Below, piece by piece: positions 1 through 31,757 of a DNA stretch of 64,000 nucleotides. How positions within the stretch are numbered: position 1 is the stretch's first letter; each line of letters starts with the position of its first letter. The notes under the pieces were generated by a model. It was given only the letters and a program-made list of their open reading frames with translations, searched no databases and was not told the origin of the DNA. This DNA is from Phaeobacter italicus. GTDB taxonomy: Bacteria; Pseudomonadota; Alphaproteobacteria; Rhodobacterales; Rhodobacteraceae. The stretch spans positions 310,001 to 374,000 of the forward strand of contig NZ_CVRM01000031.1 of the NCBI RefSeq assembly GCF_001258055.1, read 5' to 3'. Both the position numbers and the translations under genes were made by a program.

Positions 1-1379
1 CGTTCTTGCACGACAGAAATGTTGCGAATGTAATCGCCAGTGCCACGGCGGTCGCTGCGCTGGATGCGAATGTCCACTGCACCGGGGCCGGGAGTATAGT
101 CGAAACGGATCTCACCGCTCCCGTAGCGGATGTTTTCGGCGCGGCCTGCGACCTCGATGATCCCGTCGCCGTCAAACTGGAGGACATAGCGCCCCGCCAG
201 CGTTGTTGCCGTGCGCGGCAGATCCGTCAGGATCAATGTGCCGATTGACCCCAACTCAGGAGGCAGCGATGTGGGCCAGCCGTACTCGTCCAGGTATCCG
301 GCAGCGGCCAAATCCGGGTGATCGACCCCGCCCCATTGGCCGGGCAGGTGACCGATCCAGGGGCGTGCGGTTTTGAAGTGGTCCAGAAACGGGGCCTGTG
401 GGCTCCAGTCCGCGATTGCCGCGAGGTTCATGGCAATCGGTTGGCGCGGGACAGGATCCGATTTCGCCAGAGTGGGTGCCTCGCCCGTGGCGCCAACCTT
501 TGCCTGAACCGGGGCATTCAGAACCGGCAGCGTCGGGTCAGTGGGCATCGGCAGAGGGTCAGCGGGCAGGGCGGCGCGAATAGACGTTTCTTGGGCTGCC
601 TCCCATGCAATCATTTGCAGGCGCCGGGCAAGGGGCGGGGTGGGGGCCGCGTATGCCTGCCCCCATCGATTACGCAGCTGATGGGGCAATCCGACCGGGG
701 ACTGGTCGGTCAGAACGGCATATTGAAAAGCGGAGAGAAAGTAGAAGCCGATATCATTGGGGTGAATGTCATCGTCAAAGATATCTTCAATCCGGTTGAG
801 CCCGGGAACTGTTCCCGCGCGAATGGCGTCATCCAGCCGCGCCATCGCCTGACCTGCCTTGAGCAGGCGAATATTCCCTCCGGTCTCGCGATTGACGGCG
901 TCAACCACGCCTTGCCAGCGGGGCAGGTCTGCCTCCAACCGGTCGCGCCACGGGATAGAGGCGTCAGCGTCAAAAGGCACCTCTGTCCCGCTGCCGCTCA
1001 GCAACGAGTGCCAGGTCTCCTGCAGGTAGACCTCCACCTCCGGATTGGTCGTTTTGGCAAGGGTATAGAAATCACCTAGCGCAGCCTCGGTGTTGCTCCA
1101 CTTCAGGTGATTTGCGAGCGGGATGGCCTCGGTCACGATCAGGGCATCGACGGGCTCTTGAAGCCGCTCGCGGGCGTTGATGCCTTCCGCACGTGCGGCA
1201 TGGGTCCAGTTGTAACTGAGAGGAGCGCCGTTGATGATCTGCGCCTCAACCGTGACGGGCTGTGTGGTTTCGCGGCCGGGTTGTTCTGACAAAAGCTGGT
1301 TCAGCATGACGGGATTGTCCGGCCCAAACAGGGAATGGCCGACCATCACGACGCTTGTGACCAGCTCTGCCAGTGTCAT
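1..1379 (-). CDS. SGNH-like hydrolase paralogue, 3' part beyond left edge
   Basis: The reading frame is open from the ATG at 1379 to the left edge (459 codons visible, no stop), so the C-terminus is missing. The first 220 residues resemble the upstream neighbour: a GHSL nucleophile block (G14-H15-S16), an NGAPLSYNW stretch near 50-58, an ETWH block near 121-124, an AGQAMA block near 175 and a DxxH block (D203 to H206) followed by ND. Ser plus DxxH is the signature of SGNH/GDSL-type esterases or acyltransferases. Residues from about 260 on form an extra region absent from the neighbour, looking like a beta-rich domain. No signal peptide is evident, unlike the neighbour. The ATG overlaps the neighbour's stop (ATGA), so translation is probably coupled and this is the last visible gene of the PKS/NRPS operon. 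The substrate is unknown. Confidence 0.72.
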   Translation of the reverse strand, partial: MTLAELVTSVVMVGHSLFGPDNPVMLNQLLSEQPGRETTQPVTVEAQIINGAPLSYNWTHAARAEGINARERLQEPVDALIVTEAIPLANHLKWSNTEAALGDFYTLAKTTNPEVEVYLQETWHSLLSGSGTEVPFDADASIPWRDRLEADLPRWQGVVDAVNRETGGNIRLLKAGQAMARLDDAIRAGTVPGLNRIEDIFDDDIHPNDIGFYFLSAFQYAVLTDQSPVGLPHQLRNRWGQAYAAPTPPLARRLQMIAWEAAQETSIRAALPADPLPMPTDPTLPVLNAPVQAKVGATGEAPTLAKSDPVPRQPIAMNLAAIADWSPQAPFLDHFKTARPWIGHLPGQWGGVDHPDLAAAGYLDEYGWPTSLPPELGSIGTLILTDLPRTATTLAGRYVLQFDGDGIIEVAGRAENIRYGSGEIRFDYTPGPGAVDIRIQRSDRRGTGDYIRNISVVQE

Positions 1380-2281
1380 CTGCGGACCCCGGTGCGGGGA
1401 TGGGACGTCACCACCGTCCAGACAATTTCCTGAACCTTGCGTGCAGCCTCTGCAGAAAAGGCCTGCGCTGGGCTACCGTCTGCGCGTGTCAGCTGATGGG
1501 GCTGCCCTGCCGGGTTCACGTGGTAGAGCACGCTTAGATGGGTCAGTGCGACAATGTAGGCGCCCAGATCGTTGATATGGATCTGGTCCTGCGCTCCGTC
1601 AGGGGTGATGGCGAACACATCCTCGCGTCGTGACAGGCCGGGGATCTCTCCCGCCTCGATCGCGCGCACGACGGCGGCCATGACCTGACCTGCGGGGATC
1701 AGATAGGCCGGGCGGTTCGGGTTGCGCCGGGTGTCTGAGCCCGCCAATCCGCCGAGCCATAGCTGTTCCAGATCAGTGTCAATTCGAGCAAGCCAGCCAT
1801 CGGGCGTATCCAGAGGGTGCCATGTCTCATAGAGATAGAGACGTGTATCGGCAGACCCGGCCCGTGCCAGATCAGCCCACCGGCGGAAGTAGCGCGCGCC
1901 TTTGAAATAACGGATGGCATCCCGCAGCTCGACCATCTCGGTCAAGATGACGGCATCATAATCACCCGAGCCCACCGCCTCGCGGGCATCCCGCCAGATT
2001 GGAGGGTGGTTGACCTGATCGAAATGCAGGATGTCCTGATCTGGCTCCCAATGCTGTTGCAGCGGTGTGCCGGACCCCAATTGCGTGTTGTAGGCATGTT
2101 CCTTGGGGGCCAGTTGCGCGAGCATATGTGGGATGTCGGCCCCAACCAGTGAATGCCCCAGATGATAGACCGTCATAGCACCGGATGGCGGGGCAAGTTC
2201 GGGTACGGCGAAAGGGGTCGCCTGAACAGAGCCAAGCGGCAGCAGAGCCAGAAATGCAAGAAAACCGCGACGTCCGATCAT
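1376..2281 (-). CDS. Exported SGNH-like hydrolase (Tat-like signal)
   Basis: This 301-residue protein begins with a GRRGFLAF segment followed by a short hydrophobic stretch ending near A21. That matches a twin-arginine (RRxFL) export signal, so it is probably periplasmic and may fold before export. The mature part has an LGHSL block (G42-H43-S44), a YETWH block near 151-155, an IPAGQ block near 195-199 and a DQIH block (D232, H235). This gives the Ser and Asp-His elements of the SGNH fold, with His replacing the usual Asp in the first GDSL block. It is clearly related to the following gene, so the two are a tandem duplication. Its ATG overlaps the stop of the phosphopantetheinyl transferase gene. 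It might trim or deacylate the cluster product or a surface polysaccharide, but nothing in the sequence fixes the substrate. Confidence 0.75.
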   Translation of the reverse strand: MIGRRGFLAFLALLPLGSVQATPFAVPELAPPSGAMTVYHLGHSLVGADIPHMLAQLAPKEHAYNTQLGSGTPLQQHWEPDQDILHFDQVNHPPIWRDAREAVGSGDYDAVILTEMVELRDAIRYFKGARYFRRWADLARAGSADTRLYLYETWHPLDTPDGWLARIDTDLEQLWLGGLAGSDTRRNPNRPAYLIPAGQVMAAVVRAIEAGEIPGLSRREDVFAITPDGAQDQIHINDLGAYIVALTHLSVLYHVNPAGQPHQLTRADGSPAQAFSAEAARKVQEIVWTVVTSHPRTGVRR

Positions 2282-3015
2282 CGCACCCGCGGGAGCTGCG
2301 CCGCAGTTGCGATCAACCCCTCCCCAATAGCAAAGCGCCCTTCGATCCGGTCACCGGTCAAAAATGGTGCACGCTCCGCTGTGAAACACGCCGAAAACCG
2401 GCCACAAAGCGTGACATGGGCGTGTGGTGACGTCGCACAGGCGCTGTTATCCAATGTCACGTCCAGTTCCATTCCCTCAAATCCGAAAAACTGCTGGCTC
2501 AGGTGATACTGACATTTATAGGCGGCTTCCTTGGCGGAGAATATCACTTTGGCAAGCTGACCGGGATTGGCCTGCCTGCTGAGCCAGGCGCGTTCTGCAG
2601 GCCGGCAGATCTGCGGTATCAGATCATCGGAAAGCGGTGTGTCCTCTTCCAGATCTACCCCAAGGGCCTGAATGTCCTCTCCTTTGGTTGCCACGGCGAC
2701 GGCAGCGCTGCGGCAATGGCTGATGGATCCAATGAGCCCGGTTGGCCAGATTGGCGCCCGTTTGGGGCCGATCAATATCGGTTCAGCTGTCAGACCAAGC
2801 GCCGCCATCGCCCGATGCGCTGCAGCGCGCCCCGCTGCAAATTCGTGCCGCCGCTTGTCGACGGCATTTGGCGAAAGACATGCAGCTTCAGACGGGAAGG
2901 GCGCGGGCGGGTCGTCTTGCGGATCGCAGGTTTCCACCGCAACAGATGCGGCAAACAAGGGCCGTATCAGCGCCTGGTGGCGGGCGCTGCGCTGGCTGTC
3001 CAGAGTGGCCGTCAT
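2278..3015 (-). CDS. 4'-phosphopantetheinyl transferase, EntD/Sfp type
   Basis: This 245-residue enzyme should attach the phosphopantetheine arm of coenzyme A to the carrier-domain serines of the adjacent PKS (S1837) and NRPS (S1472). The family motifs are present in order: a KRRHEFAAGRAAAH block (residues 54-67), GSISHC (96-101), the metal-binding GVDLE (119-123, D121 and E123) and FSAKEAAYKCQY (159-170, K162 and E163). Length and motif set fit the EntD branch of the Sfp superfamily rather than the short AcpS of fatty acid synthesis. It starts with ATG inside an ATGA overlap with the NRPS gene and ends in another with the SGNH gene, so supply of the activator is tied to synthesis of its targets. 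Confidence 0.92.
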   Translation of the reverse strand: MTATLDSQRSARHQALIRPLFAASVAVETCDPQDDPPAPFPSEAACLSPNAVDKRRHEFAAGRAAAHRAMAALGLTAEPILIGPKRAPIWPTGLIGSISHCRSAAVAVATKGEDIQALGVDLEEDTPLSDDLIPQICRPAERAWLSRQANPGQLAKVIFSAKEAAYKCQYHLSQQFFGFEGMELDVTLDNSACATSPHAHVTLCGRFSACFTAERAPFLTGDRIEGRFAIGEGLIATAAQLPRVR

Positions 3016-6000
3016 CCCTGACGCGCCCGCCTGTTGGCCCGCATCGCGCGGCGTTTTGACATCATGTCGGACTTGGTCGCCGCATCAACAGCGGTCGCCG
3101 TCGGCTCTGCTTCAGGGGGGCTGTCACCGGTCAGCGTGGCGATGTGGCCCGCCAGACCAGACAGCGTTGGGAAGCGGAAAATATCCGTGATCGACAGTTT
3201 TGGTACATCCAGTGTGCTCCGAATGTCGCGATGCGCCTGAACCGCCAGCAGCGAATGCCCCCCGAGCGTAAAGAAATTGTCCTCGGCGCCAATGCCTTCC
3301 AGCCCCAGAATGCGGCCCCAGATCTCGGCGATCTGGGCCTGCGTACCCCCCGATGGGGGCGCAGAGTGGACGGGCACGGCGATCTTCACGGGGGTCGGAT
3401 CCGGCAATGCCTTGCGGTCGATTTTTTTGTTGGGCGTCAGAGGGAAATGATCAAGGTGCTCAATGTGGCTTGGCACCATGACCTCGGACAGCTGCTGAGC
3501 CAAGGCGGCCTTGATCGCGGCCTGATCCAATGGCGCCTGTCCGGTGACATAGGCAATCAACCGTGTGTCAGAAGCCGCCACACCAGCGGTGGCCATGTCC
3601 CGCGCAACCACCACCGCTGCGGTGATACCCGGCAGCCCGGCCAGCGCTGCTTCGATCTCGCCCAGCTCGATCCGCTGGCCGCGGATCTTGACCTGATGGT
3701 CGCTGCGGCCAAGGAAATCCAATTGGCCGTCACTGCGCCAACGCACGAGATCGCCGGTCCGGTACAGATGAGAGGAGGCAACGCCGGTTGTTGCAGCCTT
3801 GGCAAAAGGATCAGTAACAAAGCGTTCGGCGGTCAGCTCCGGCCGTTGCCAGTAGCCCGCCGTGACCCCTGCGCCACCAATCATCAACTCCCCCGGCACA
3901 CCAACCGGCTGCGGCTCTAGCTGATCGTCCACGACATAAACGGTGGTATTGGCAATGGGGGCACCGATGTGGGCGGTGCCTGCTGGCGTATCGCCAAGGG
4001 TTTGCATGGTGGACCAGATCGTTGTTTCGGTCGGGCCATACATGTTGTGAATGGTGGCTTCGGTTGCGCCACGCAGGTCACCAACCAGATCACCCGGCAA
4101 GGCCTCGCCACCAACCAGCAGCTGGGAAAGCCGTCCCAGAACGGGCCGCGCATCACTGTCAGCCGCGATCATCCGTGCCATCGACGGGGTGCATTGCATA
4201 TGGGTCACGCCATGGCGCAGGATCTGCGCCGCGAGCGATACGTCATCAGCCGCCAACTCCTGTGGTGCATTTGACAGGCGCAGCACCTCAGCCAGCGGTT
4301 TCAACCCTTCCAAAACGACCTCCGGCGCGATGCCGTAGTCGATGAGGCAGGCAATTTCATCCACCCCGATGCGTTTGAGCTGTTCAACCCGCTGCAGCGC
4401 GTCTTCGACCGTGCCGAACAATCCCGAATCCTCAAAGTAACGCTCAAAGGCGAATTCGAGGATGGCTTCGAGCTCGTCTGACGAGAGCATGCCAAGATCC
4501 ATCTCAAACGGGTTTGAGACGCCCTTGGGTTTTTTGAAGGCGGGGAAGGCCCAGGCATATTGCTTGATGAGCCCGGCGGCCGCGCGCAGGTAGTCCTTCA
4601 TCGGTTCGCGCGCGGTCTCACGCGCCTCTTGCCGTGTCGGGGCAAGATAGCTGTGCAGCATGAGGGTGACCTTGTGGTCGCGCGGATCATATCCCGCAGC
4701 GCGCAGTGCGTCGTGATAGATGGTGATCTTGCCAGCGACCTCTTCGATGCTCTGGCCGAGCAAATGGGTCAATACGTTGGCCCCGATGCTGCCTGCTTCG
4801 CGCCAGGTGTCCGGGTTGCCGGCGGTTGTGACCCAGACGGCAAGCTCTTTGGAGACGGGTCGCGGCTGCGTCATCACGCTGTGCAAGGCACCATCCTTGC
4901 GCGCAAAGCTCACCTCTTCGCCGCGCCACAGCTTGCGTACGGTTTCGATGGCTTCAAACATTGCGGGCTTGTTTGCGGGCGGGGTGTTTTCAGGCCGCAG
5001 GATGAAATCATCCGGCTGCCAGCCAGAGGCAAACCCAATACCTGCGCGCCCTGCTGTCAGGTTGTCGATGACAGACCATTCTTCGGCAATCCGAGCGGGG
5101 TGATGCAGTGGTGCGACGCAGGATCCTGCCCGCACGCCAATATTCTGCGTGACAGCTGCAACCGCGGCGCCGGTCACGGATGGGTTCGGATAGGGGCCCC
5201 CAAAGGCGTGGAAATGCCGCTCTGGTGTCCAGACCGCGTTGAACCCATGTTGATCTGCGAACTTCGCGCCCTCCAGCAGCAGTTCGTATTTGCGCGGGCC
5301 AGGACCATCGTCATTGCCCCAATAGAACAAGTTGAAGTCCATGCCACGATCACTGGTGGAAATCGGCCCGTTTGAGAGCTGCAACCGGCTTTCATCGCTG
5401 GACAACACCAGCTTCAACCCGCGCGACAGCGTCCAGAACAGTTCCAGCACGGAAATATCAAACGACAGGCTCGTCACTGCAAGCCAACAGTCCCCCGGCT
5501 GATGCGGGATTTTCCTGTCCATTGCGGCAAAGAAGTTGGCGACATTTCCGTGACGCACCATCACCCCTTTGGGGGTGCCAGTAGAGCCGGAGGTATAGAT
5601 CAGATAGGCCAGATCCTCTGGCCGGGGGGGCTGGGCGCCTGCGTCCTGCCCGTTCACTGTGCGCGATGGGAGGTCATCCAGCGCCACAACGATTGCAGCT
5701 GCGCGATGCGGCAGCTGTGGTTGCAGGGCGCTGGTGGTGAGCAGGACGGATGCGCCGCTGTCGGTGATGAAATGTGCGATGCGATCGGCGGGATAGGCCG
5801 GATCCAACGGCACATAAGCGGCGCCGGTTTGCATGGCCGCCAGCGCGGCAACCACCAGGTCGATGCTGCGATGCAGATAAATTCCGACCCGGTCCCCGCG
5901 TGTGACACCCTGTTGGCGCAGCACAGCAGCCAGCGCGTCAACACACTCCTGAAGGTCGCGGTAGCTCAGGCTGTCATGTTCAAAAACCAGCGCAGTTGCG

Positions 6001-7667
6001 TCAGGTGTGCGAGCCACCTGGGCTGCGAACTCTGCCGGGATTGTGCTGTCTGTTGTGCCCTCAAACGCTGTGGCGTTCCACTCAACCAGTAGTTTGCGAC
6101 GCTCGTCCTGTGGCAGGGCAGGAAGGTCGCTGATGGTGCGGCATGACCCCTCCTGCAATGCGGTGACCAACAGGTTGGCGCGCGCCACCAACAGCTCCTG
6201 GGCGGTTTCGTCCAACTGGCTGCTATCAAGGATCAAGGTCAGCGTGGCATCCGTCAGGCACAGCGTCACAGCACAGCCTGCAATTGGTGCGTTTGTGTCC
6301 AGGGCGCAGCCAAAGGTCGGCTGCAAGGGGCCGCGGGCGCGCAGTTCCGGTGCGCGTTGCTGCAGGTCGACTGCAAAGCCTCCCAGCTGATCTGCGGTCT
6401 CGACCTCAGCTGCAAGCCCTGCGCGCAACGTGGGCAGATCGTCCGTGCGCGCGATCTGGGCAGGCACCCAGTCGCTGATGAAACCGGGACGCGCCATTTG
6501 CGCAATGCGGCTGGTGCGCAGGGCAATACCTGTTGTTTCTGCCCCACTGCTGCGCAGGCTCAGCGCGGCGGTTGCCAGCACCGCGTCCGCCGGCGTCAGC
6601 GCTGCATCGGCGGGAACGGGGATCACATGGTTGACGTGGCCTGTTGTCGCCTGAGCGGAGATCAGCGCGAAATCATCAGCTGGCAGATCTGCCAGTCGCG
6701 CGCGCCACTTCGTTTCGCCTTTCTGGGTCGAACTGAGCGCATCGCCCAATGTCGTGCGCGCCGTCGCATCAAGCTGGGGCAGGATATCCCCCACCTTGGC
6801 CACGGTTGCGAGATCGATGTCAGAGCCATCGCTGCGTTTTACTGCGCTGAGATGCAGCGCCCCTTCGGCGCAGGCCACCGTCAGCCGGTCCTGCGAGACA
6901 GCCAGAACCTCACCCGCAGCGCCTGCGCCCTCTGCGCGGCTTGCGGTGCCAACACTCAAGACGTCAGCCTGCCCATCTGTACCGGTAACCATGATCTTGG
7001 CCGTGCACAGCGGATTCCAGTAGCCATTGAAATCCAGAGCCCGAACCAGACGCAGGAGATCATCTGCCGGTTGCCCGAAATCCAGAACACCGCCGGCTGC
7101 GGGGCGATCGGCGCGGGTATATAGCTTGCGTGTCGTGAAATCCTGCGGCTGTCGGTCCAGTGCGCCGCTTTCCAGTTGCGCCAGCACCTCGCCAAAACTG
7201 TCCATCGCAGCGGCGTAACACTTTGCGTTCAGGCTGTAGGCGGTTTCGTCTTCTGCGATATCGAACAACCGTTGGGCAAGGATATCCCCCTCGTCCACGC
7301 CACCCTCGATCATGTGCCAGGTGATGCCATAGCTATCGGCACCCTCGATCAGGGCCCAGTTCGGAGTGTTGAGACCGGCATAACGCGGCAGTGGGCCGTC
7401 GTGAAAGTTCACGCCTCCCTTGCGAGCACGGGCCAGCACGGGGGCTGGAATGATGTCGAGATTGGCAATCGACAACAGCCAGTCCACGTCCCCCTCAAAC
7501 GTGCGCGCATCTGTTAGAACCGGCAGCCCCTTGCCTTCAGCCCAGGCGCTGATTTCGGCGTCGCGGCTGACAACGGCGCTGATCTGATGGCCTCTTGCCA
7601 GCAGGCTGTCCGCACAGGCGATCAGCAGTGATTCATTGCCAAGCACGATACAGGAGAAGGGTGTCAT
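3012..7667 (-). CDS. NRPS: formyltransferase - C remnant - A (split by luciferase-like monooxygenase) - PCP
   Basis: This is a 1551-residue NRPS. Residues 1-300 form a methionyl-tRNA-formyltransferase-like domain that keeps the catalytic N87, H89 and D125. Residues about 330-535 resemble only the C-terminal lobe of a condensation domain and lack HHxxxDG. Adenylation starts near 545, with A3 (YTSGSTGTPKG, 691-701) and A4 (FDISVLELF, 736-744). A luciferase-like flavin monooxygenase of MupA/Atu3671 type then interrupts it (about 775-1120). Adenylation resumes with A5 (NMYGPTE, 1208-1214) and A10 (K1415). The carrier serine is S1472 in LGGHSL. The specificity positions read D-I-L-Q-L-G-M-I-W-K, one change from a known glycine code. 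Residues 1531-1551 are a basic tail. The ATG at 7667 overlaps the glycosyltransferase stop; a longer in-frame opening to 8030 lies inside that gene. Best read as a starter module that loads, oxygenates and N-formylates glycine. Confidence 0.93.
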   Translation of the reverse strand: MTPFSCIVLGNESLLIACADSLLARGHQISAVVSRDAEISAWAEGKGLPVLTDARTFEGDVDWLLSIANLDIIPAPVLARARKGGVNFHDGPLPRYAGLNTPNWALIEGADSYGITWHMIEGGVDEGDILAQRLFDIAEDETAYSLNAKCYAAAMDSFGEVLAQLESGALDRQPQDFTTRKLYTRADRPAAGGVLDFGQPADDLLRLVRALDFNGYWNPLCTAKIMVTGTDGQADVLSVGTASRAEGAGAAGEVLAVSQDRLTVACAEGALHLSAVKRSDGSDIDLATVAKVGDILPQLDATARTTLGDALSSTQKGETKWRARLADLPADDFALISAQATTGHVNHVIPVPADAALTPADAVLATAALSLRSSGAETTGIALRTSRIAQMARPGFISDWVPAQIARTDDLPTLRAGLAAEVETADQLGGFAVDLQQRAPELRARGPLQPTFGCALDTNAPIAGCAVTLCLTDATLTLILDSSQLDETAQELLVARANLLVTALQEGSCRTISDLPALPQDERRKLLVEWNATAFEGTTDSTIPAEFAAQVARTPDATALVFEHDSLSYRDLQECVDALAAVLRQQGVTRGDRVGIYLHRSIDLVVAALAAMQTGAAYVPLDPAYPADRIAHFITDSGASVLLTTSALQPQLPHRAAAIVVALDDLPSRTVNGQDAGAQPPRPEDLAYLIYTSGSTGTPKGVMVRHGNVANFFAAMDRKIPHQPGDCWLAVTSLSFDISVLELFWTLSRGLKLVLSSDESRLQLSNGPISTSDRGMDFNLFYWGNDDGPGPRKYELLLEGAKFADQHGFNAVWTPERHFHAFGGPYPNPSVTGAAVAAVTQNIGVRAGSCVAPLHHPARIAEEWSVIDNLTAGRAGIGFASGWQPDDFILRPENTPPANKPAMFEAIETVRKLWRGEEVSFARKDGALHSVMTQPRPVSKELAVWVTTAGNPDTWREAGSIGANVLTHLLGQSIEEVAGKITIYHDALRAAGYDPRDHKVTLMLHSYLAPTRQEARETAREPMKDYLRAAAGLIKQYAWAFPAFKKPKGVSNPFEMDLGMLSSDELEAILEFAFERYFEDSGLFGTVEDALQRVEQLKRIGVDEIACLIDYGIAPEVVLEGLKPLAEVLRLSNAPQELAADDVSLAAQILRHGVTHMQCTPSMARMIAADSDARPVLGRLSQLLVGGEALPGDLVGDLRGATEATIHNMYGPTETTIWSTMQTLGDTPAGTAHIGAPIANTTVYVVDDQLEPQPVGVPGELMIGGAGVTAGYWQRPELTAERFVTDPFAKAATTGVASSHLYRTGDLVRWRSDGQLDFLGRSDHQVKIRGQRIELGEIEAALAGLPGITAAVVVARDMATAGVAASDTRLIAYVTGQAPLDQAAIKAALAQQLSEVMVPSHIEHLDHFPLTPNKKIDRKALPDPTPVKIAVPVHSAPPSGGTQAQIAEIWGRILGLEGIGAEDNFFTLGGHSLLAVQAHRDIRSTLDVPKLSITDIFRFPTLSGLAGHIATLTGDSPPEAEPTATAVDAATKSDMMSKRRAMRANRRARQG

Positions 7668-8692
7668 TTGGGTTCCTCCGCAGAAGACGGGGTGGGGCGC
7701 GTTTCCATAAGACGGGTCACATGCGGACGAAAGAGCGCACGTGTGTGATGGGCAAGCAGATCCCGCAGGAAATGGGGGGGATCTGTTGCAGGCTTGTTCG
7801 AAATAACCCGTCGCAGACGATAAAGCAGACTGCCTGCGACAAGTGCAGCCGTGGCAAGCGCTGCATAGGTGCGGCCACGGGTGCTGATAAAGTAATGCAA
7901 GCGGCTGTCGAACCAGTAGCGTGGTGTGCGCTGCCAGTTCTTCATGCCAGTGGATGCCGACCCGACATGGGCGACTTCGCTCGCGGGGAGGTAATGCGTC
8001 TGCCATCCCGCGCGAGCAGCCCGGTGACACAGCTCGGTTTCCTCAAAATAAAGAAAGAAGGCCTCATCAAATCCGCCAACGGCCTCAATCACCTCTCGTC
8101 GGATCATCAGGCTGGCTCCCGCGGTCCAGTCCAGCTGTGCCGGTTCTTTTGGCAACGCCATCGGCACAACAGAGTTGCGCAGCAGGCGTGTGATGATCCC
8201 GGTTTGTATGGCGCCTTCAAACTCTCCAGCGATGGAGGGAAAGCGAAACGCCGTACAGTGCGGTTCGCCGTCCATGCCGCGCACATAAGAGCCGACCAGC
8301 CCGGCCCGTGGTGTGGCAATGAGATAGTCGCGCAGGGAGCGAATGGCGCCAGGCTGCACAAAGGCGTCAGAGTTCAGCAGATAGTAAAACGCAGGTGCGC
8401 TGCCATCCGAGAGACCAAGCTGGAAGCCGATGTTCATTCCCGCGCCAAAGCCACCGTTTCTGTCGCTGGCAATGACACGCAAGCGACCTGTGTTCAGCCA
8501 GCCGCGATCCTTGGCAGCGGCCAGTATCGTGTCATACGATCCATCGCCCGACCCGTTGTCGATGATCACGATTTCCCCTGGCAGCTCCGCCATTTCAACC
8601 AGCGCCGCCGCCGCACAATCCAGCGTCATCTGTGGCGTCTTGTAGTTCAGGATAATCGTGAGGATCCGGATATCGTGCGTGGTGTCGAGCAT
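7664..8692 (-). CDS. Glycosyltransferase family 2 in the PKS/NRPS operon
   Basis: This 342-residue protein has a GT-A fold of family 2. It has a beta-strand start (ILTIILNYKTP, about 9-19), the nucleotide-sugar block IIDNGSGDGS, and an LNSDAFVQPG segment in the place of the metal-binding DxD. The FDEAFFLYFEETELCHRA stretch and rhamnosyltransferase-like layout suggest transfer of a deoxyhexose or similar sugar. Near residues 290-310 a hydrophobic segment followed by basic residues suggests membrane association. It starts at ATG 8692, three bases after the PKS stop, and its own stop overlaps the NRPS start. This position suggests it glycosylates the NRPS/PKS product or an acceptor the product is joined to. 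The donor and acceptor cannot be read from sequence. Confidence 0.85.
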   Translation of the reverse strand: MLDTTHDIRILTIILNYKTPQMTLDCAAAALVEMAELPGEIVIIDNGSGDGSYDTILAAAKDRGWLNTGRLRVIASDRNGGFGAGMNIGFQLGLSDGSAPAFYYLLNSDAFVQPGAIRSLRDYLIATPRAGLVGSYVRGMDGEPHCTAFRFPSIAGEFEGAIQTGIITRLLRNSVVPMALPKEPAQLDWTAGASLMIRREVIEAVGGFDEAFFLYFEETELCHRAARAGWQTHYLPASEVAHVGSASTGMKNWQRTPRYWFDSRLHYFISTRGRTYAALATAALVAGSLLYRLRRVISNKPATDPPHFLRDLLAHHTRALFRPHVTRLMETRPTPSSAEEPK

Positions 8693-8695: not shown

Positions 8696-11600
8696 CTACT
8701 CTGCGGCCTCCGCTTGTCGGGAGGCACTGGACTGTCGGAACGCATCCCGGTCGGCAGCGTCGAGGCGGGCTTTTACCTCTGCGGCCAGTACGCTGACATT
8801 TGGAACCAGAACCATGCTGTCATGATCACCCGGCACCTCGACCACCTCGATGTTGCGGGCAAAGCGGGTCCAGTCGTTGTCTTCAAAGACATATTCGCGT
8901 TCGGCACTGACCCAATTGCCCCCGGACACCGGCCAATGACGATCCAGTGGCGGACGGAACAGCGTCAGCGGTCCTTCCCATGGGCGTAAATCGTAAACCG
9001 GCAGCGCGGCCCGGAACGCCAGTTCGACCTTTCGGTTGTTGAAAGCGGGCAGAGTGCCGTCTTCTGCGGGGCGGTCGCGACGCTTTTCGATCTCCCATGC
9101 GATCCGGTTGCTCAGCCATTCGCCGAGATAGCCCAGTCCCTTGCGACGTAGTTCAGCCCATTTGATCAGCGCCTTGTCATGACGACTGAGCTCAGGGCGC
9201 ATCGGCAGCGGTGTATCGAGCAGGATCAGGGCATCGGTTTCCTCGCCTGCCTGCTTGAGCTGCTGCGCCATTTCATAGGCGGTCAGCCCCCCGCCAGAGA
9301 AGCCGCCCAGCAGATAGGGGCCTTCGGGTTGGACACTGCGAATTTCAGCGAGATAGTCGCGCGCAGCATCGTCGAGACGGTCATGCGGCGCCTCCTCTCC
9401 GATCAGGCCCTTGGCCTGCAGCCCATAGACCGGGCGGTCCTTGCCAACCATCAGGGCAAGATGGCGCAGGTTCAGGACATTGCCGAACATGCCCGCCACA
9501 AGGAAGAAAGGCCGCCGGCCGGTGCCATCACCGGGGTGCAGCTGCACCAGATGGGTGTGGCGTGCCGCGTCCTGTGTCGATCCGGCTTCATCGTCAGAGG
9601 ATGCATCTGTTGTCAGCCCCCCGCCGGTTCGGGCGATAATGATCTCGGCCAGTTTTGCCACTGATGGGGCCTCAAAGAGGGTGGAGATGGCCAGATCGAC
9701 GCCAAAGGTGCGTTTGATCTGCGCAAACAGTCGCACGGCAATCAGCGAGTGCCCGCCAAGGTCAAAGAAACTGTCCTCCACCCCGATCTGTGAGACGCCG
9801 AGCAGACGGGCGAACTGTGCGGCGATGTCTTCTTCTACCGCGTTGCGAGGCGCGATGTAGTCGGTATCGAGCTGCGGTCTGGCAAAGCTCTGATCGGTTG
9901 TGGCCTGTGCCTTGGGTGGTTGATCGGCCTCGGCAATCAGGTCCGGCAGATGAAGCGAAGAGACGACCACTTGGCTCAGGTCGGTCGCAAGCGCGCGTCG
10001 CAGTGCCTCTGGTCCCTCTTCGGCGCGGATGCCGTTTGCGATATTGCGGTGCAGACGACGTTCCTCGGGGGAAAGGGGCTGCGCGTGATTGGCGCTGGCC
10101 AGCCCCAGATCCGCTGTTGTGGCATCCACCGTGTTGACAGGCGCAGAGGCAACCGGCCCGCTCATTTGTTGCATTCGGAAGCCGTGAATTTCGACCAGAA
10201 CAGCGCCGTCCGGGGCGCAAAGGGTGATGTCAAAGCGCGCGGCGCCAGCTGCGCTGTCGCGAAGGCGCATGTGGCTGACAATCTCGGACCCTTTGGTGGC
10301 GGGCAGGGCGGCATGGATACACAGGCTGTCATAGGACACCGGCACCCACAGGGAAGCATCGCGGTAAGTCGGCGCGAGGTCGATGGCCCAGCCAGTGGCC
10401 AGATCCATCAAGCCAGGTGGTAGCAAGGTGGCGTCTGCGCTGGCAGCATCCGGCAGGCGCAGACGCGCGAGACCTTCGCCGTTGCCGCGCCGCATCTCCT
10501 GCAGCGCGTGCCAGCGCGGACCAAAGTCAAGGTTGGCCTCTTGCGGGGCCATCAGTCGATCACCAGCGGCATCGGCAACTGCGCTGCAGCGCGCGCTGAT
10601 CTCAGCAATCGGCAGCGGGGCGGGGTGTTCCGGTGCTGCGTCGGTGACCAGCACCGCCTGGACGTGCAGGGCGTAGCCTTCAGCAACTTCGCTGAACACG
10701 GCAAACTCATAGCCCTGTTCAACCGCGGTCAGGCGCACGACAATGCCGACAGGGCGGGCTGCCGTGACAATCAGCGGGCGCAGAAAATACAGCTCACGGA
10801 TCTCAAATGGCGCCTCGTGGCCCAGCTCTGCCAGGGCTTCGGCTGCATACTCGATATAGCCGGTGCCAGGCACCAATGCGGTGCCCTCCCTTGTCCTGTG
10901 TTCCGCAAGCAGCCATTGATCGTCTGTCAGGCGGCGATGGAACAGGACAGCGCCATCGCTGGCAAATTGACGGCTGTCAAACAGCGGTTGGCTGGATGGC
11001 TGTTCCTGTGGTGTCTCGCTTCCCGAGCGCGCATCCATCGCGTCTGCGGCCATGCCGACATCCGCCCAGACCCCCCAATCGATCGCAAGCACTCTGGTTT
11101 TGCTGTCACGGCGCGCGGCATGGTGGCGGGCAAAGGCATTGAGATATTCGTTGGCCGCCACATAATCGACCTGTCCGATGGGTCGCGTCACCGCAGAGGA
11201 GGAGGAAAACAGGACCATGACCTCCAGCTGATCCGGACCAAACAGGTCCGAGATGACCCGCAGCCCGCTCACCTTCGGGGCGAGCACCTGTGCGATGTCC
11301 TCCTCGGTCTTGGCAAGAACCGGCGCATCGTTGATCTGACCTGCGCCATGAATGACGCCCGTGATGGGACCGAATTCGGCCTCTGCACTGGCGACGGCCG
11401 CGCGCATCTGTTCGCTGTTGCAGACATCCGCAGCCAGCGACAGGACACGTCCCTTGCCGATCGCTTCCAGCTGCTGCACTGCGCGGATGCGCTGGGATTG
11501 TACATTGGCGGGGCTGTGGCGGTTCAGATGGGTATCCCAAGTCTCGCGCGGGGGCAGGCCCGCACGCGAAATGAGCACCACATTCGCGGCATAGTTCCGC

Positions 11601-14600
11601 ATCAGATCGGCTGCGATCGTGCGCCCAATACCGCCGTAGCCCCCGGTAATCAGATATGTGCCACCATTTCGGAAGCAGGGTGCGTCCGTGTCCGTCTCAT
11701 CCGCTTTTGCAAGAGGAATGGTTCGCCAGCGCAGAGAATGACGCCGCCCATCCCGGATCAGCGCGATGTCATTTGCAGGCTCTGCCAGTAGATCCTCCAG
11801 AAGTGGCGACAATGGCAGTTCTGTTTCCTGATCAGACAACAGTCGGCGCAGCCCGGTAGGCCGCTGTGGCAGCTCAATGTCCAACGCTGCACAGGTGAGC
11901 CCGGCCACCTCGCGGGGCAGAACACCTGCGGGCCCCGCAATCATTGCCTTTTCCGGATAGGGCAGGGGTTCGTCGCGCAGTTGGGCCGCGCCTGTGGTCA
12001 TGACGCAGAGGTGGATGGGATGGGGCAGATCAATTTGAGCAAGCGCCTGACCAAGTGCTGTCAGGGCGTAAAACCCCATCTCCAGATTGCGGTCAAAGAA
12101 GGACGCACCGGGGCGGAAGCTCTCTTTCTGCGTGACCAGCCAGAAATGGCCAATGCGGGTTGGCATCAGATCGCCATCTGCCAGATCGGAGAACAGCGCG
12201 TCATAGCCTGCGCGTCCCTGTTCGGGAGCAAGCATAAAGCGGGTTTCGCTCAGCCTTGCGTAGGTGTCGCCGGGAACCACGTGCACGACCCTGTGTCCCG
12301 CGTCTTCAAGCCTGCTGGCAAGCGCTGCGGCGAGTCCGGTGTCATCCTCAAAGAACAGCCAGGTTTCAGGGTGGCGGTTCAGATCGTCCTCGACATCAAT
12401 ATCGCAGCTTGCAAAGGCAGGCCGCCAGGCTGGGCGATATCCCCAGTCGCGGATGTCCTCGTGGCGGGCGGGGGCGCTATAGGTCTGTTCCGCTGCCTTT
12501 TCCTTGGCCGGTTCGATGAAATAATGACTGCGCTGAAAGGCGTAGGTGGGAAGGGGCAGGCGGCTGCGGCGTGCATCGCCCCAGATCTGATCCCAATCCG
12601 CCTCGTAACCGCAGGCCCACAAACGGCCGATCACACCAAAGAAGTAGGCATCATCCGCGACGTCCTGTTCCGGGTGGCGCAGGGAGGATAACACCTGTCC
12701 CGGCTTTACCTGTGGCGCCATCTGAGCCAGTGATGACAGCGCTTTGCCGGGACCAACCTCAAGGAAGATGCGGTTGGGAACCGCGGCAAGCGTGTCGATG
12801 CAATCGGCAAACATCACAGTGTTGCGCAGTTGGCCGACCCAATAGTCCGGATCCGTCGCCTCTGACGCGGTCAGCGCCTTGCCGCTACGATTTGAGATAA
12901 TCGGCAGATTTGGCGGCGTGAGCGTCAAACCCTTCAGGAACTGGCGATACTCCTCCAGAATGCCGTCCAACATCCGGCTGTGGGCAGCGATGTCGATCTG
13001 GATGCGTTGGTGATCGATATCTTTGGCCGTCAGCTGCGCAGACAGCGCATCAAGGGCATCTTGCGGTCCGGACACGGCTGTCAGGTTGGGGGCGTTGACG
13101 CTGGCAATATCAAGATCAGGACTGATCAGGGCCTCGACATCCTGCAGCGGAAGAGAAATCGAAAGCATGCCGCCTTCGGGCACATTGTCAAAGAGACGAC
13201 CGCGCAACAGGATCAGGTCGATGCAGGCCTCAAACGACAAGACGCCGGCAAGGCAGGCGGCTGTGTTTTCGCCCATCGAATGCCCGACCAGTGCCGCCGG
13301 GCGCACGCCCCAGCTGATCCACAACTGAGCAAGGGCGTATTCGACAATCATGATCAGCGGCAGCTGTACGGAGGGTTGTTGCAGGCGGGCATTTGCTGCC
13401 GCCTCGTCGCCATCCTCTGCCAGCCAAATTGCGCGGATGTCATAGTCCAGCTGGTTTTGCAGATGGTCGAGCCCCCGGTCCATCCAATCGGCAAAGACCG
13501 GTTCTGTCTCATAAAGATCGCGGGCCATGCCTGCGTATTGTGCGCCGCCTCCCGGGAACATGAAGACGGTTTCTGGCGTGCCGTCCAGACGGTCATGGGT
13601 GAAGACCTTGCGGGGATCAGCCTCTGTCAGCAGCGCGGCCGCTTCTTCGGCGGTTTCCGCAACCAGAGTGCGGCGTTTGGCAAAACCGCGTCGCCCTTCC
13701 TTTAGCGTGTAGGCGACATCTGCCAGATCAAGACCGGGATTGGCCTTCAGGTGGTCGGCCAGGGCATTGGCATTTGCATCAAGCGCAGCTTTGGACTGGC
13801 CGGAAATGCACAGGATGTGGAATGGGAAATCGCTTTCCTCGGAAGGCGGGCGGGCAGGGGCCTCTTCCAGAATGACGTGGGCGTTCGTGCCACCCACGCC
13901 GAGAGAATTGACACCGGCGCGGCGCGGTCCCTTATGGGACGTCCAGGCCGTCAGCGCAGAATTGACGCGAAACGGGGAGCCATCAAAGTCGATGGCTGGG
14001 TTGGGGGCCTCATACCCCAACGATGGGGGGATTTCGCCGTGGTGCAGTGCCAGTGCGGTTTTGGTCAGGCTGACCACCCCCGCTGCGGTATCGAGGTGGC
14101 CAATGTTGGTTTTGACCGACCCGATACGGCAAAAGCCCGCGGCGTCGGTGCTGTCGCGGTAGGCTTCCGTCAAAGCGGTAACCTCGATCGGGTCGCCAAG
14201 ATAGGTGCCGGTGCCGTGGCATTCGACATAGTCAATGGTTTCGGCCGGTGTTTTTGCTGTATCCAGCGCCTTGCGGACGGCCTTGGCCTGGCCGCCGACA
14301 GAGGGCGCAAGGTAGCCCGCCTTATCGGCCCCGTCGTTATTGATCGCCGACCCTTTGATAACGGCCCAGATGTGGTCACCGTCTGCGATTGCGTCTTCCA
14401 GCCGACGCAGGGCAACCGCCCCCGCGCCAGAACCGAACACAGTGCCCTGCGCGCGGTGATCGAATGCGTGGCAATGCCCGTCGGGTGAAAGGATTTCGTT
14501 TTCCTTGAACAGGTATCCCCGACCTTGTGGCAGTTCGATCGTCACGCCACCGGCGATTGCCATTTCACACTCGCCTTCGCGCAGGGCCTTGCTGGCGTAG

Positions 14601-15256
14601 TGGACCGCGACCAAAGACGTGGAACACGCGGTCTGAATGTTGACCGAAGGGCCGCTGAGATCAAAGACATGGCTGACGCGGGTGGACAGGAAATCCTTGT
14701 CATTGCCGGTATGACGCAAAAGGAACATGCCGACGTCATCGACCAATCCACGGTTTGAGCAGATGTTGAAATAGAAATAGCTGCCCATGCCACAGCCCGC
14801 ATAGACCCCGATGGGGCCGTTCAGGCTCTCTGGGGGGTGGCCTGCGTTTTCCATAGCCCCCCAGGCAACTTCAAGAAACTTGCGGTGCTGAGGGTCAAGG
14901 ATTGCGGCCTCCTTGGGGCTGAAGCCAAAGAAGTCTGCGTCAAATTCCGCATAGCCATCCAGTGATGCAGTGGCGCGGACATAATTGGGGTCACTCAGCG
15001 TGTCGGGGTCTTCCCCGGCGGCGATCAGCTCTTCATCGGTGACGGGGCGGATGGACTCGATTCCATCGCGCAAATTGTTCCAGAATTCAGCCGGAGACGC
15101 CGCTCCGGGCACGCACAGGGACATACCGACAATAGCGATGTCGCCGCTGTAGCGCGTGTCGTCAAACGGTTTGGATCCAGAATTTCCCAATGCCCCAATC
15201 GCCTTTAAATCATGTGCCCCGATCCGGCGTGCCGGTCGCGGCAGGTTCGCTACCAA
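8696..15256 (-). CDS. Type I polyketide synthase: KS-AT-KR-DH-ACP-TE
   Basis: This is a single-module PKS of up to 2186 residues. Ketosynthase: C211 (TACSTS), H347 (ECHGTGT) and H387 (TNIGH). Acyltransferase: S660 in GHSMGE; the usual HAFH/YASH specificity motif reads IAAH, so the extender is probably malonyl but not certain. A structural KR half (about 930-1180) precedes the catalytic KR (TGGYGGIG 1204-1211, serines 1351-1354, Y1365, N1369). A dehydratase-type double hotdog follows (H1453, D1618), with one residue more than usual between His and Gly of its motif. ACP S1837 and a type I thioesterase (S1987 in GFSGGG, H2145 in GDHDS) complete the chain. DH after KR is unlike the standard DH-KR order. 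The frame opens at TTG 15256 right after a stop. An internal TTG at 15190 behind AAAGGCG is an alternative start. First gene of the operon. Confidence 0.93.
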   Translation of the reverse strand: MVANLPRPARRIGAHDLKAIGALGNSGSKPFDDTRYSGDIAIVGMSLCVPGAASPAEFWNNLRDGIESIRPVTDEELIAAGEDPDTLSDPNYVRATASLDGYAEFDADFFGFSPKEAAILDPQHRKFLEVAWGAMENAGHPPESLNGPIGVYAGCGMGSYFYFNICSNRGLVDDVGMFLLRHTGNDKDFLSTRVSHVFDLSGPSVNIQTACSTSLVAVHYASKALREGECEMAIAGGVTIELPQGRGYLFKENEILSPDGHCHAFDHRAQGTVFGSGAGAVALRRLEDAIADGDHIWAVIKGSAINNDGADKAGYLAPSVGGQAKAVRKALDTAKTPAETIDYVECHGTGTYLGDPIEVTALTEAYRDSTDAAGFCRIGSVKTNIGHLDTAAGVVSLTKTALALHHGEIPPSLGYEAPNPAIDFDGSPFRVNSALTAWTSHKGPRRAGVNSLGVGGTNAHVILEEAPARPPSEESDFPFHILCISGQSKAALDANANALADHLKANPGLDLADVAYTLKEGRRGFAKRRTLVAETAEEAAALLTEADPRKVFTHDRLDGTPETVFMFPGGGAQYAGMARDLYETEPVFADWMDRGLDHLQNQLDYDIRAIWLAEDGDEAAANARLQQPSVQLPLIMIVEYALAQLWISWGVRPAALVGHSMGENTAACLAGVLSFEACIDLILLRGRLFDNVPEGGMLSISLPLQDVEALISPDLDIASVNAPNLTAVSGPQDALDALSAQLTAKDIDHQRIQIDIAAHSRMLDGILEEYRQFLKGLTLTPPNLPIISNRSGKALTASEATDPDYWVGQLRNTVMFADCIDTLAAVPNRIFLEVGPGKALSSLAQMAPQVKPGQVLSSLRHPEQDVADDAYFFGVIGRLWACGYEADWDQIWGDARRSRLPLPTYAFQRSHYFIEPAKEKAAEQTYSAPARHEDIRDWGYRPAWRPAFASCDIDVEDDLNRHPETWLFFEDDTGLAAALASRLEDAGHRVVHVVPGDTYARLSETRFMLAPEQGRAGYDALFSDLADGDLMPTRIGHFWLVTQKESFRPGASFFDRNLEMGFYALTALGQALAQIDLPHPIHLCVMTTGAAQLRDEPLPYPEKAMIAGPAGVLPREVAGLTCAALDIELPQRPTGLRRLLSDQETELPLSPLLEDLLAEPANDIALIRDGRRHSLRWRTIPLAKADETDTDAPCFRNGGTYLITGGYGGIGRTIAADLMRNYAANVVLISRAGLPPRETWDTHLNRHSPANVQSQRIRAVQQLEAIGKGRVLSLAADVCNSEQMRAAVASAEAEFGPITGVIHGAGQINDAPVLAKTEEDIAQVLAPKVSGLRVISDLFGPDQLEVMVLFSSSSAVTRPIGQVDYVAANEYLNAFARHHAARRDSKTRVLAIDWGVWADVGMAADAMDARSGSETPQEQPSSQPLFDSRQFASDGAVLFHRRLTDDQWLLAEHRTREGTALVPGTGYIEYAAEALAELGHEAPFEIRELYFLRPLIVTAARPVGIVVRLTAVEQGYEFAVFSEVAEGYALHVQAVLVTDAAPEHPAPLPIAEISARCSAVADAAGDRLMAPQEANLDFGPRWHALQEMRRGNGEGLARLRLPDAASADATLLPPGLMDLATGWAIDLAPTYRDASLWVPVSYDSLCIHAALPATKGSEIVSHMRLRDSAAGAARFDITLCAPDGAVLVEIHGFRMQQMSGPVASAPVNTVDATTADLGLASANHAQPLSPEERRLHRNIANGIRAEEGPEALRRALATDLSQVVVSSLHLPDLIAEADQPPKAQATTDQSFARPQLDTDYIAPRNAVEEDIAAQFARLLGVSQIGVEDSFFDLGGHSLIAVRLFAQIKRTFGVDLAISTLFEAPSVAKLAEIIIARTGGGLTTDASSDDEAGSTQDAARHTHLVQLHPGDGTGRRPFFLVAGMFGNVLNLRHLALMVGKDRPVYGLQAKGLIGEEAPHDRLDDAARDYLAEIRSVQPEGPYLLGGFSGGGLTAYEMAQQLKQAGEETDALILLDTPLPMRPELSRHDKALIKWAELRRKGLGYLGEWLSNRIAWEIEKRRDRPAEDGTLPAFNNRKVELAFRAALPVYDLRPWEGPLTLFRPPLDRHWPVSGGNWVSAEREYVFEDNDWTRFARNIEVVEVPGDHDSMVLVPNVSVLAAEVKARLDAADRDAFRQSSASRQAEAAE

Positions 15257-15469: not shown

Positions 15470-16933
15470 TCAGATCACGCTGCGGGGCTTGTTTGTCACC
15501 CCTTGTTGGGCCATTGCCTGCTGGCCCTCGAACAACGCGCGCTTCGGCTCGAACAGGCCGGGGTATCGCAATCGTTCTGCGTAGCCGAGCACAGATCCCG
15601 CACACAGCCAGGTCACCGGTGTCAGCGTGGCGTTCAAGAGCATATCCACCAGGGTGGCTGCCAGCATCAGGGCCAGCGGCGCCGCATATGGAGACACATC
15701 GGCAGGCGCGCGTTTGCGGATCTCGCTCCAGAGCAGCACAAGTGGGCCAGCCAAGAGCCCCATTTCCGCGATGTAGCCCACCCAGCCGTAGGTGCCAAAG
15801 ACCAGGATCCAACGCCCGTCAGGAATTGAGACGATTTCGCCTGTTTCGCTGTGCCGTACCAGATTGCGGCCCCAGCCGCCCCATCCAAACCACGGCTTTT
15901 CTGCTGCACGATCAAGCATCAGGCCTTCGTTGGTGAAACGAAAGCCGAGCGACTGCGCCCGTTCGGGGCTGAAGGCCTGAGCCTTGGCGAGAATGGCATC
16001 AACGGGCACCACACCAAAATTGCGCAACATCGGGTAGACGATCGCTATGATGCCCAGCGTCAGCGCGAGCCGCATCTGCCAACGATAAGAGGCCATCGCG
16101 ACAAAGGGTGTGAAAATCAGGCCGTAAACCAGGGATGCAATGCTCTTGCACAGGATCAAAACACCGAAAAGGTAGACAGCAGCCAAGGCAAAGCGACGTT
16201 TGTCTGGCCCATCGGCCGCCCGGGCCAGAGCGGTGGCCGACAAAAGGGTCATCAGGACGAACAGTGCCAGCCACAGACTGTGAGGCAGGAACACGATGGG
16301 TCGGAAACCACCTTGGCGGATGGTCTGGCTGAAGTCATGCTGGAAAAAACCGTAGATCCAGGTGTTCAGCTGCGGGCTGAAACGGACTTCGAACAGTGAG
16401 GGGATGGAATACACCAACCCAGCCACCATCAGCGTCATCACAAGCGTTTTCTGTTGGGCCTCGCTTGATAGATAGCGGCGGCCAAGAAAGAAAGGCAGCA
16501 GGAAAATCAACTGGTTGATCATCACCGACCCCAGATCCCGCCAGCGGAGTTCGGGCAGAGCGTAGGTCGGGAAGACGATAGGCGCCGCATCCTCGAGAAC
16601 CCGGAAAATGATCGGATCCCCATTGGTCAATACTGTCGCGATGACAGAGCCGAGAAACAACGCGACGAGCGCACGCATGATGGGCTGGCGGGGCCAGATT
16701 TCGACCTTTTTGCCCAATAGGTAGACGCAGATGACAAAGGCCACGACAGACGGGATGGAATCCTTGTCCATGTCCGGAACCAACGGCAGGTCGAATACGG
16801 CGATCGGGGGCAGGAACAGATAGCCACCGATGATTGTCCACAAAATGGCGTGCTGAAGCGACAGCCGTTGAAACAAGCCAAAAGCAACCGCCGGCCAGGC
16901 GATCAGCATCAGATATGCCAGCGCATTGGGCAT
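15470..16933 (-). CDS. Wzy/O-antigen-ligase-like integral membrane protein
   Basis: This is a 487-residue polytopic membrane protein with about ten or more hydrophobic segments spread over its length. Around residue 355 lies a hydrophilic block with the pattern NEGLMLDRAAEKPWFGWGGWG. That is the Wzy_C signature of O-antigen ligases and polysaccharide polymerases, which join or polymerise lipid-linked sugars at the periplasmic face. The ATG at 16933 is preferred over in-frame openings up to 17029 because the upstream extension is Arg/Pro-rich and a modest ribosome site precedes 16933. It lies 213 bases upstream of the PKS on the same strand and is divergent from a WecG-type gene, so it belongs with the glycosyltransferases. 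It could also hand a glycosylated cluster product to a carrier; that is only an inference. Confidence 0.78.
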   Translation of the reverse strand: MPNALAYLMLIAWPAVAFGLFQRLSLQHAILWTIIGGYLFLPPIAVFDLPLVPDMDKDSIPSVVAFVICVYLLGKKVEIWPRQPIMRALVALFLGSVIATVLTNGDPIIFRVLEDAAPIVFPTYALPELRWRDLGSVMINQLIFLLPFFLGRRYLSSEAQQKTLVMTLMVAGLVYSIPSLFEVRFSPQLNTWIYGFFQHDFSQTIRQGGFRPIVFLPHSLWLALFVLMTLLSATALARAADGPDKRRFALAAVYLFGVLILCKSIASLVYGLIFTPFVAMASYRWQMRLALTLGIIAIVYPMLRNFGVVPVDAILAKAQAFSPERAQSLGFRFTNEGLMLDRAAEKPWFGWGGWGRNLVRHSETGEIVSIPDGRWILVFGTYGWVGYIAEMGLLAGPLVLLWSEIRKRAPADVSPYAAPLALMLAATLVDMLLNATLTPVTWLCAGSVLGYAERLRYPGLFEPKRALFEGQQAMAQQGVTNKPRSVI

Positions 16934-17164
16934 TGCTCGTCTTTGTGGCCTCGTCTTGTCCGACCTAACAGGCGCTGGGCCGAATGGTCTCGGTATGGGC
17001 TCAGTTCTGGCGCAATCTGGCCGTTTCAATCGTTAAGTTTAACCATAGTTCCCGCATCTGTCGCGCGCATTCGTCTATAGAGGTAAACTCTTGCTCGGAT
17101 GTGGTGTCCGTGTGATCGAGGACGTGTCGGATGCAGGCTCTGGGGCAGAAAATGGGGCAAGGTC

Positions 17165-28145: not shown

Positions 28146-28278
28146 TGCGTCTTTGTCCTTCGTATCCTTGGCATTGCGCTATGAGGCCTGCCCGCGCAGT
28201 CTCGCCTTTGGCTAGGCGGAATGAGGGCAGGGCAGTTCCGTCACCCTAGGCAAACCCGTGTTTCTTCGGTATTCCCAT

Positions 28279-28295
28279 ATACTGCCAAACTGTAT
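28279..28295. promoter_or_regulatory. Candidate LysR-type binding site between puuD and its regulator
   Basis: The 181-base gap between the divergent puuD and LysR genes contains ATAC-N9-GTAT, an interrupted dyad of the T-N11-A class bound by LysR-type regulators. It lies 32 bases before the regulator start, where it could mediate autoregulation and control of puuD. Only this single dyad was noticed. Confidence 0.4.
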
Positions 28296-28326
28296 CAAAA
28301 AAACTGGAACAATCGCAGGTCGCGTC

Positions 28327-29253: not shown

Positions 29254-29271
29254 TCTCGCCCAACCCGTGGA

Positions 29272-29643: not shown

Positions 29644-29801
29644 CGTCAGTGTCCTCCTGCTGGGCCCTTTGCATCTGCCTGATGCGCCGAGGCGCTGCAA
29701 ACATGCGTGTTCTGATAGTGTATTCGGGAAAATTTGAAAAATGGCTGTGATCTTCTGCCATAGTAATGTCCTGATACCGTTTGAAAAGAGGCGTCCTTTC
29801 C

Positions 29802-31217: not shown

Positions 31218-31260
31218 AGCAATTGGATCGGTGGCCGGTTTCCAGCGTGCAGGGGGCGTC

Positions 31261-31746: not shown

Positions 31747-31757
31747 AACGCATCAAG

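Follow-up and report, generated by a model that had tools for sequence, protein, structure and literature searches.

Linear gramicidin synthesis starts on LgrA, whose initiation module (F-A-PCP) joins an N-terminal formyltransferase (FT) to an adenylation (A) domain and a peptidyl carrier protein (PCP), and formylation is required there before the chain is extended (PMC4504003). The same paper describes CongA and OzmO, the loading modules of conglobatin and oxazolomycin, in which an FT and a glycine A domain hand an N-formylglycine starter to a polyketide synthase (PKS). In MtaG and MelG of the myxothiazol and melithiazol pathways a flavin monooxygenase, inserted into a glycine A domain between motifs A4 and A5, hydroxylates the alpha carbon of glycine; the chain is then released as an amide, leaving a glyoxylyl thioester behind (PMC10204066). 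The luciferase-like monooxygenase (LLM) of PuwE in puwainaphycin synthesis yields a 2-hydroxy acyl group (PMC4219810). Related literature includes PMC11342130, PMC4062626, PMC4359443 and PMC8739492. Here we describe a nonribosomal peptide synthetase (NRPS) protein of 1551 residues, encoded in a 64,000-nucleotide stretch of the Phaeobacter italicus genome (contig NZ_CVRM01000031.1, positions 310,001 to 374,000; hereafter the window). It is a variant of these starter modules in an unexpected and conserved setting rather than a lone oddity. We propose, with evenly balanced confidence, that it and a partner PKS form a two-protein line whose product, a short acyl group derived from glycine, N-formylated and oxidised at the alpha carbon, is destined for a surface polysaccharide.

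Architecture of the NRPS starter protein

The protein and its domains are laid out as follows.

3012..7667, minus strand: NRPS starter protein, 1551 aa, ATG at 7667; order FT, C-terminal condensation (C) lobe, A domain with inserted LLM, PCP
6798..7667, minus strand: FT domain, aa 1-290, with N87, H89 and D125 (Pfam, residue invariance, structural model and Foldseek)
6048..6767, minus strand: C-terminal lobe of a condensation domain, aa 301-540, without HHxxxDG (hhalign to a C-domain profile)
5385..6029, minus strand: first part of the A domain, aa 547-761, ending just past A4
4284..5336, minus strand: inserted LLM, TIGR04020, aa 778-1128 (470 bits; PuwE, 6ket)
3405..4280, minus strand: second part of the A domain, A5-A10, aa 1130-1421
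3141..3335, minus strand: carrier domain, aa 1445-1509, with Ser1472

Pfam places Formyl_trans_N at aa 62-154 (E 7.4e-16) and Formyl_trans_C at aa 193-288 (E 9.8e-7). The original prediction of an intact FT was borne out, N87, H89 and D125 being invariant in 24/24 rows of one alignment and 80/80 rows of a second. The smaller alignment was built from 28 proteins, omitting L015, L035, L042 and L043 as too short or broken; the larger comprises the window and 79 of 80 listed loci (L044 omitted, broken frame), these 80 being the best of at least 588 loci confirmed in a genome-contig search, a scope that applies to every count of loci out of 80 below. This retention of catalytic residues rules out a chance assembly of domains or a pseudogene. 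Broken NRPS frames do occur in L044/L042 (150 aa from the start in L042) and in L035 (near residue 1223), reflecting either assembly errors or decay.

The condensation domain is a remnant, as originally read: residues ~300-545 align with columns 217-495 of a 496-column condensation profile (hhalign 98.7%, E 1.8e-16), and the half that would carry HHxxxDG, and with it the hallmark of an active domain, is missing. Pfam alone matched no family to this lobe in the window protein and found PF00668 in 2/24 relatives. An AlphaFold2 model of residues 1-545, covering FT and lobe, has a mean pLDDT of 94.5, and its best Foldseek matches are ArnA and methionyl-tRNA formyltransferases (TM ~0.75-0.8 on targets of ~300 aa).

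The predicted splitting of the A domain by an LLM, followed by a PCP, was confirmed by Pfam, NCBIfam and alignment. AMP-binding is matched in two stretches (best 547-761), AMP-binding_C at 1337-1415 and PP-binding at 1445-1509. The motif FDISVLELFW (~736-745) precedes the insert and NMYGPTE (~1208-1214) follows it; these stretches we take to be A4 and A5, respectively. Between them, Bac_luciferase spans aa 792-1103 (E 1.2e-42), and the NCBIfam family TIGR04020 scores 470 bits at aa 778-1128 against a curated cut-off of 244. The closest solved relative of the LLM alone is PuwE (PDB 6ket, E 2.7e-101). The carrier serine is present in 79/80 rows, the remaining one being L105, which is short and has no match at that column.

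A profile built from 18 family members gave LgrA structures as the best whole-protein relatives in the PDB. Both proteins have an N-terminal FT, with the asparagine, histidine and aspartate catalytic residues, fused to an A-PCP unit, and the missing full C domain fits a predicted chain-starting role of the LgrA type. The two differ in that LgrA lacks a monooxygenase and uses another amino acid, whereas the window protein carries the C-terminal condensation lobe and a Formyl_trans_C subdomain and has a PKS as its partner. CongA and OzmO are alike in supplying an N-formylglycyl starter to a PKS, but no monooxygenase is described for them, and their products are macrolides with oxazole rings, with no tie to surface-sugar loci. 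The LLM of PuwE sits between PKS, aminotransferase and NRPS parts, whereas that of the window protein lies inside a glycine A domain.

Glycine code and the predicted oxidation step

The ten specificity positions, which we presume to follow GrsA numbering, were read over both parts of the A domain as D737, I738, L741, Q1158, L1184, G1186, M1209, I1217, W1218 and K1415, giving DILQLGMIWK. The pattern DILQ-x-GM(I/V)WK is kept in 80/80 aligned rows, as DILQMGMIWK (47), DILQLGMIWK (22), DILQFGMIWK (8), DILQLGMVWK (2) and DILQYGMIWK (1). In a 2025 survey of 93 glycine domains, all four that contain a MOX domain bear DILQLGMIWK (PMC12283262), and the code read from the window sequence equals it. Together, the domains, the code and the FT residues support the earlier suggestion of a starter-like module that would formylate glycine.

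We infer every chemical step that follows from these features. The split A domain would activate glycine and load the carrier, the FT would formylate the glycyl amine from formyl-tetrahydrofolate, and the LLM, with reduced FMN, would hydroxylate the alpha carbon of the carrier-bound glycyl unit. Formylation and hydroxylation could occur in either order, and the resulting N-formyl-alpha-hydroxyglycyl thioester would be kept, not cleaved. Because the chain would start at this protein, the condensation remnant is probably a structural spacer.

The original prediction allowed oxidation at either nitrogen or the alpha carbon. Alpha-hydroxylation is favoured because of the role given to inserted LLMs in the literature found, the position of PuwE as the nearest structure and the MOX-type glycine code, while N-hydroxylation drew no support from anything found. 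N-formyl-N-hydroxy groups are known in other natural products, a precedent by which the LLM might instead hydroxylate the glycine nitrogen; the resulting hydroxamate, an N-formyl-N-hydroxyglycyl unit, might serve as a metal ligand. We consider this very improbable, since the functions described for LLMs of the same kind, in the sources found, are carbon oxidations, and siderophore uptake or export genes were not noticed among the listed annotated neighbours.

A second alternative is that the N-formyl carbinolamide is cleaved as in MtaG and MelG, so that formamide is lost and the PKS in fact starts from a glyoxylyl thioester. The position of the insert and the class of the code match those modules, for which such cleavage is described; in myxothiazol and melithiazol synthesis the carbinolamide does cleave, and the same reaction here would lose the formamide, which counts against retention. 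The match with MtaG and MelG, which the original prediction had rightly named with LgrA as partial parallels, is incomplete: their modules end the chain by cutting it to a terminal amide, whereas the window protein has an FT and would start one, without a complete upstream or working C domain and without a terminating thioesterase (TE), which is found on the PKS. Against cleavage, a glyoxylyl starter would need no formylation; oxidation of unformylated glycine would suffice and nothing would keep the FT from decaying, yet it is intact in every aligned row. Solanimycin B also retains its hydroxyglycine, the monooxygenase there lying at A8/A9 (PMC10204066). We therefore favour retention and regard cleavage as improbable.

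Partner genes and distribution of the cassette

The NRPS gene belongs to a cassette whose other members are listed below.

8696..15256, minus strand: partner PKS, ketosynthase (KS), acyltransferase (AT), ketoreductase (KR), dehydratase (DH), acyl carrier protein (ACP) and TE; start codon uncertain, KS from near aa 39
7664..8692, minus strand: cassette family-2 glycosyltransferase (GT2), overlapping the NRPS start by 4 bp
2278..3015, minus strand: 4'-phosphopantetheinyl transferase (PPTase)
1376..2281, minus strand: SGNH-fold protein 1 (SGNH1; GHSL...DxxH), one N-terminal hydrophobic segment (alignment, model and Foldseek)
1..1379, minus strand: SGNH-like protein 2 (SGNH2), extending beyond the window to 850 aa in total; GHSL and DxxHxN seen by eye

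Overlaps of 4 bp link GT2, NRPS, PPTase, SGNH1 and SGNH2, each with the next. Relatives along nearly the whole NRPS length were found in all 80 loci among the matches listed, and the same-strand order PKS, GT2, NRPS holds in 74 of them; on plasmids of Hyphomicrobiales the PKS and NRPS genes are still neighbours but run divergently. Across the listed loci GT2 was found in 78, the PKS in 77, the PPTase in 72, and the GT2b, O519 and WecG classes in 45, 44 and 42, respectively.

In a PKS alignment of 104 rows (103 of 124 loci and the window), the KS Cys/His/His, AT Ser/His, KR Ser/Tyr/Asn, DH His/Asp and ACP Ser residues are invariant throughout, and the TE residues are kept in 101 (Ser), 102 (Asp) and 101 (His) rows. 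The KS would accept the formylated unit and add most likely one malonyl unit, after which reduction by the KR and dehydration by the DH would give a C4 acyl group of the 4-formamido-4-hydroxybut-2-enoyl type, which the TE would release or transfer. Malonyl as the extender is a guess, because AAHS in the AT matches neither textbook specificity motif.

SGNH1 matched no Pfam family, but GHSL and D-x-x-H are invariant across 30 aligned rows. Its model (pLDDT 91.9) gave as best PDB matches a DUF4886 protein, peptidoglycan O-acetyltransferase B (PatB) and CE3 and CE2 carbohydrate esterases, most of these Foldseek matches lying above E 0.001. A role in handling acyl groups on sugars would fit this predicted fold.

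The combination of domains, originally called unusual, is so relative to the characterised enzymes found but not among genomes, where it forms a recurring family. Searching for the FT plus LLM-split architecture, a check proposed at the outset, gave no support for rarity, the combination being conserved in 80/80 listed loci. The LLM family occurs in 19/398 genomes of a phylum-wide draw, 14 with a split A domain and an FT upstream, two with a split A domain and no FT, and three with the LLM otherwise placed. It is present in 6/289 genomes of one class-wide draw and above cut-off in 18/61 relatives (7/7 of the same genus, 11/30 in the rest of the family and 0/24 outside it). With 17 plasmid records covering at least 80% of the NRPS protein, and homologues in the genus and genome-contig searches, a protein unique to the strain is ruled out.

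Nearly all of the 80 listed loci are from Rhodobacterales, with one from Hydrogenophaga. In a 67-row LLM tree, 50 rows from Rhodobacterales, Hyphomicrobiales and Hydrogenophaga form one group (support 100/99), and five deeper rows (Deinococcus L015, L009, L145, L014 and L143) form another (98/88). Every row with an FT lies within a 56-row group (82/89) that also holds a long-branched stand-alone LLM (L152); by this branching the FT-A(LLM) fusion likely arose once, though without firm support. The cassette of the betaproteobacterium Hydrogenophaga pseudoflava (L069) branches among those of Rhodobacterales, which suggests transfer. In Deinococcus actinosclerus (L015:14001-19324), FT and A(LLM) are two annotated genes that adjoin PKS and capsule genes.

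Surface-polysaccharide setting

Beside the cassette lie genes of the following kinds.

15470..17029, minus strand: polytopic membrane protein, Wzy/O-antigen-ligase-like (Wzy_C 20.9 bits, below the cut-off of 31.7; nine hydrophobic segments)
17099..17917, plus strand: WecG/TagA/CpsF glycosyltransferase
17923..20003, minus strand: two family-2 glycosyltransferases

Just outside the window the same genome encodes a flippase (Polysacc_synt_3), a family-2 glycosyltransferase and a Wzz-like protein (24.6 bits, just under the cut-off of 25.5), so that the gene set of a Wzx/Wzy locus is present, with the Wzz-like and Wzy-like matches sub-threshold. Homologues of this flippase, glycosyltransferase and Wzz-like protein occur in 45/80, 45/80 and 53/80 listed loci, respectively, and in 0/20 control regions. 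The partner PKS, GT2, PPTase and this setting were missed by the original prediction, and the setting changes the likely destination of the NRPS product.

Using 26 query proteins (E 1e-10, 60 bits), at least one class of polysaccharide marker was found in 76/80 loci and at least two in 74/80, against 0/20 control regions. Omitting the window-derived, WecG, GT2b and O519 classes left at least one in 58/80 and at least two in 55/80, again against 0/20. Four listed loci (L045, L083, L097, L120) have no polysaccharide marker. Inflation by glycosyltransferase cross-hits was rejected, as masking the cassette removed two matches and left 76/80 unchanged. The controls were 20 regions of 20 kb, hand-picked at round coordinates in 13 cassette-bearing genomes, compared with family loci of 8-27 kb, and the test was not blind because the queries came from plasmid relatives and the window.

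On plasmids, sugar transferases, flippases, export proteins and glycosyltransferases are annotated around L005, L006, L007, L008, L010, L012, L193 and the Deinococcus locus L015. L009 is an exception, its annotated neighbours being nitrous-oxide-reductase genes, TamB/Omp85 and an exosortase. TamB and Omp85 genes also adjoin the polysaccharide genes in the window (21223-26762) and have homologues in 6/80 and 2/80 listed loci, respectively.

From this gene neighbourhood we infer that a sugar in a surface polysaccharide of the Wzx/Wzy type would receive the acyl group; GT2, and the SGNH proteins in loci that have them, would act on the acylated sugar or polymer. The D-alanylation of teichoic acid by the Dlt system offers a likeness in outline, in that an A domain and a carrier ready an acyl group for a surface polymer alongside an SGNH-like protein. 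The window cassette is not a member of that system, which uses D-alanine without a PKS, FT or LLM and has an MBOAT partner of a kind not seen among the window-side proteins scanned (part of the reading frames).

The main competing explanation is that the cassette product is secreted as a free small molecule, perhaps in glycosylated form, and that its genes merely lie within a surface-polysaccharide island. In its favour, a free acid is a possible product of TE release, FT-A(LLM) forms part of longer NRPS/PKS lines in the deep subclade L009/L145, and the PKS/NRPS genes of P. inhibens have been treated as secondary metabolism. This explanation has to contend with the marker counts in loci and controls, with the persistence of the link, despite differing gene orders, at several plasmid loci of Hyphomicrobiales and on a Deinococcus plasmid, and with the fact that no recurring dedicated exporter was noticed. 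We judge it unlikely, though the most serious of the alternatives.

Several observations nevertheless weigh against delivery to a surface glycan by the route proposed. SGNH1 and SGNH2 are found in only 35/80 and 31/80 listed loci, and no MBOAT-type acyltransferase appeared among the proteins scanned, which represent part of the reading frames. The neighbourhood linkage is not independent from locus to locus, because nearly all 80 belong to one bacterial family; the deep-branching L009 and L145 embed FT-A(LLM) in longer lines; and around G605 (L145, L182, L183) only an SDR was matched, no listed polysaccharide marker being found around L145. The PKS could be iterative. Finally, a flavin reductase gene directly follows the A(LLM) gene on a Streptomyces plasmid (L189:11846-12367), and no homologue of it was found in the 80 listed loci.

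Elsewhere in the window, about 20 kb from the cassette, lie the glycine cleavage genes gcvT and gcvP (39025-43585) and a glutamine-synthetase-like gene (37044-38600); glycine and folate are the presumed NRPS inputs. Genes for purine breakdown occupy 26913-33307 (urate oxidase, transthyretin/HIUase family, xanthine/uracil permease family and a LysR regulator).

In the literature searched, from which subscription journals were mostly absent, we found no description of an NRPS/PKS cassette in polysaccharide loci or of a sugar decoration made in this way by an assembly line. The broader proposal, that surface-polysaccharide synthesis in many Rhodobacterales, and in some Hyphomicrobiales and Deinococcus, has a modular NRPS/PKS line as a standard component, making a C4 acyl group derived from N-formyl-alpha-hydroxyglycine for attachment to the glycan, is more tentative and in our estimate falls somewhat short of an even chance. 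If it is right, part of the orphan NRPS/PKS pairs reported for Phaeobacter (Inhi_1972 and Inhi_1974, which by their spacing would be the same cassette genes) would be explained. Enzymology would gain an oxidised formyl-glycine building block, along with a compact natural enzyme whose single chain carries out both formylation and oxidation. If the proposal is true, an assembly line usually seen as antibiotic machinery would have a conserved role in the cell envelope of abundant marine bacteria.

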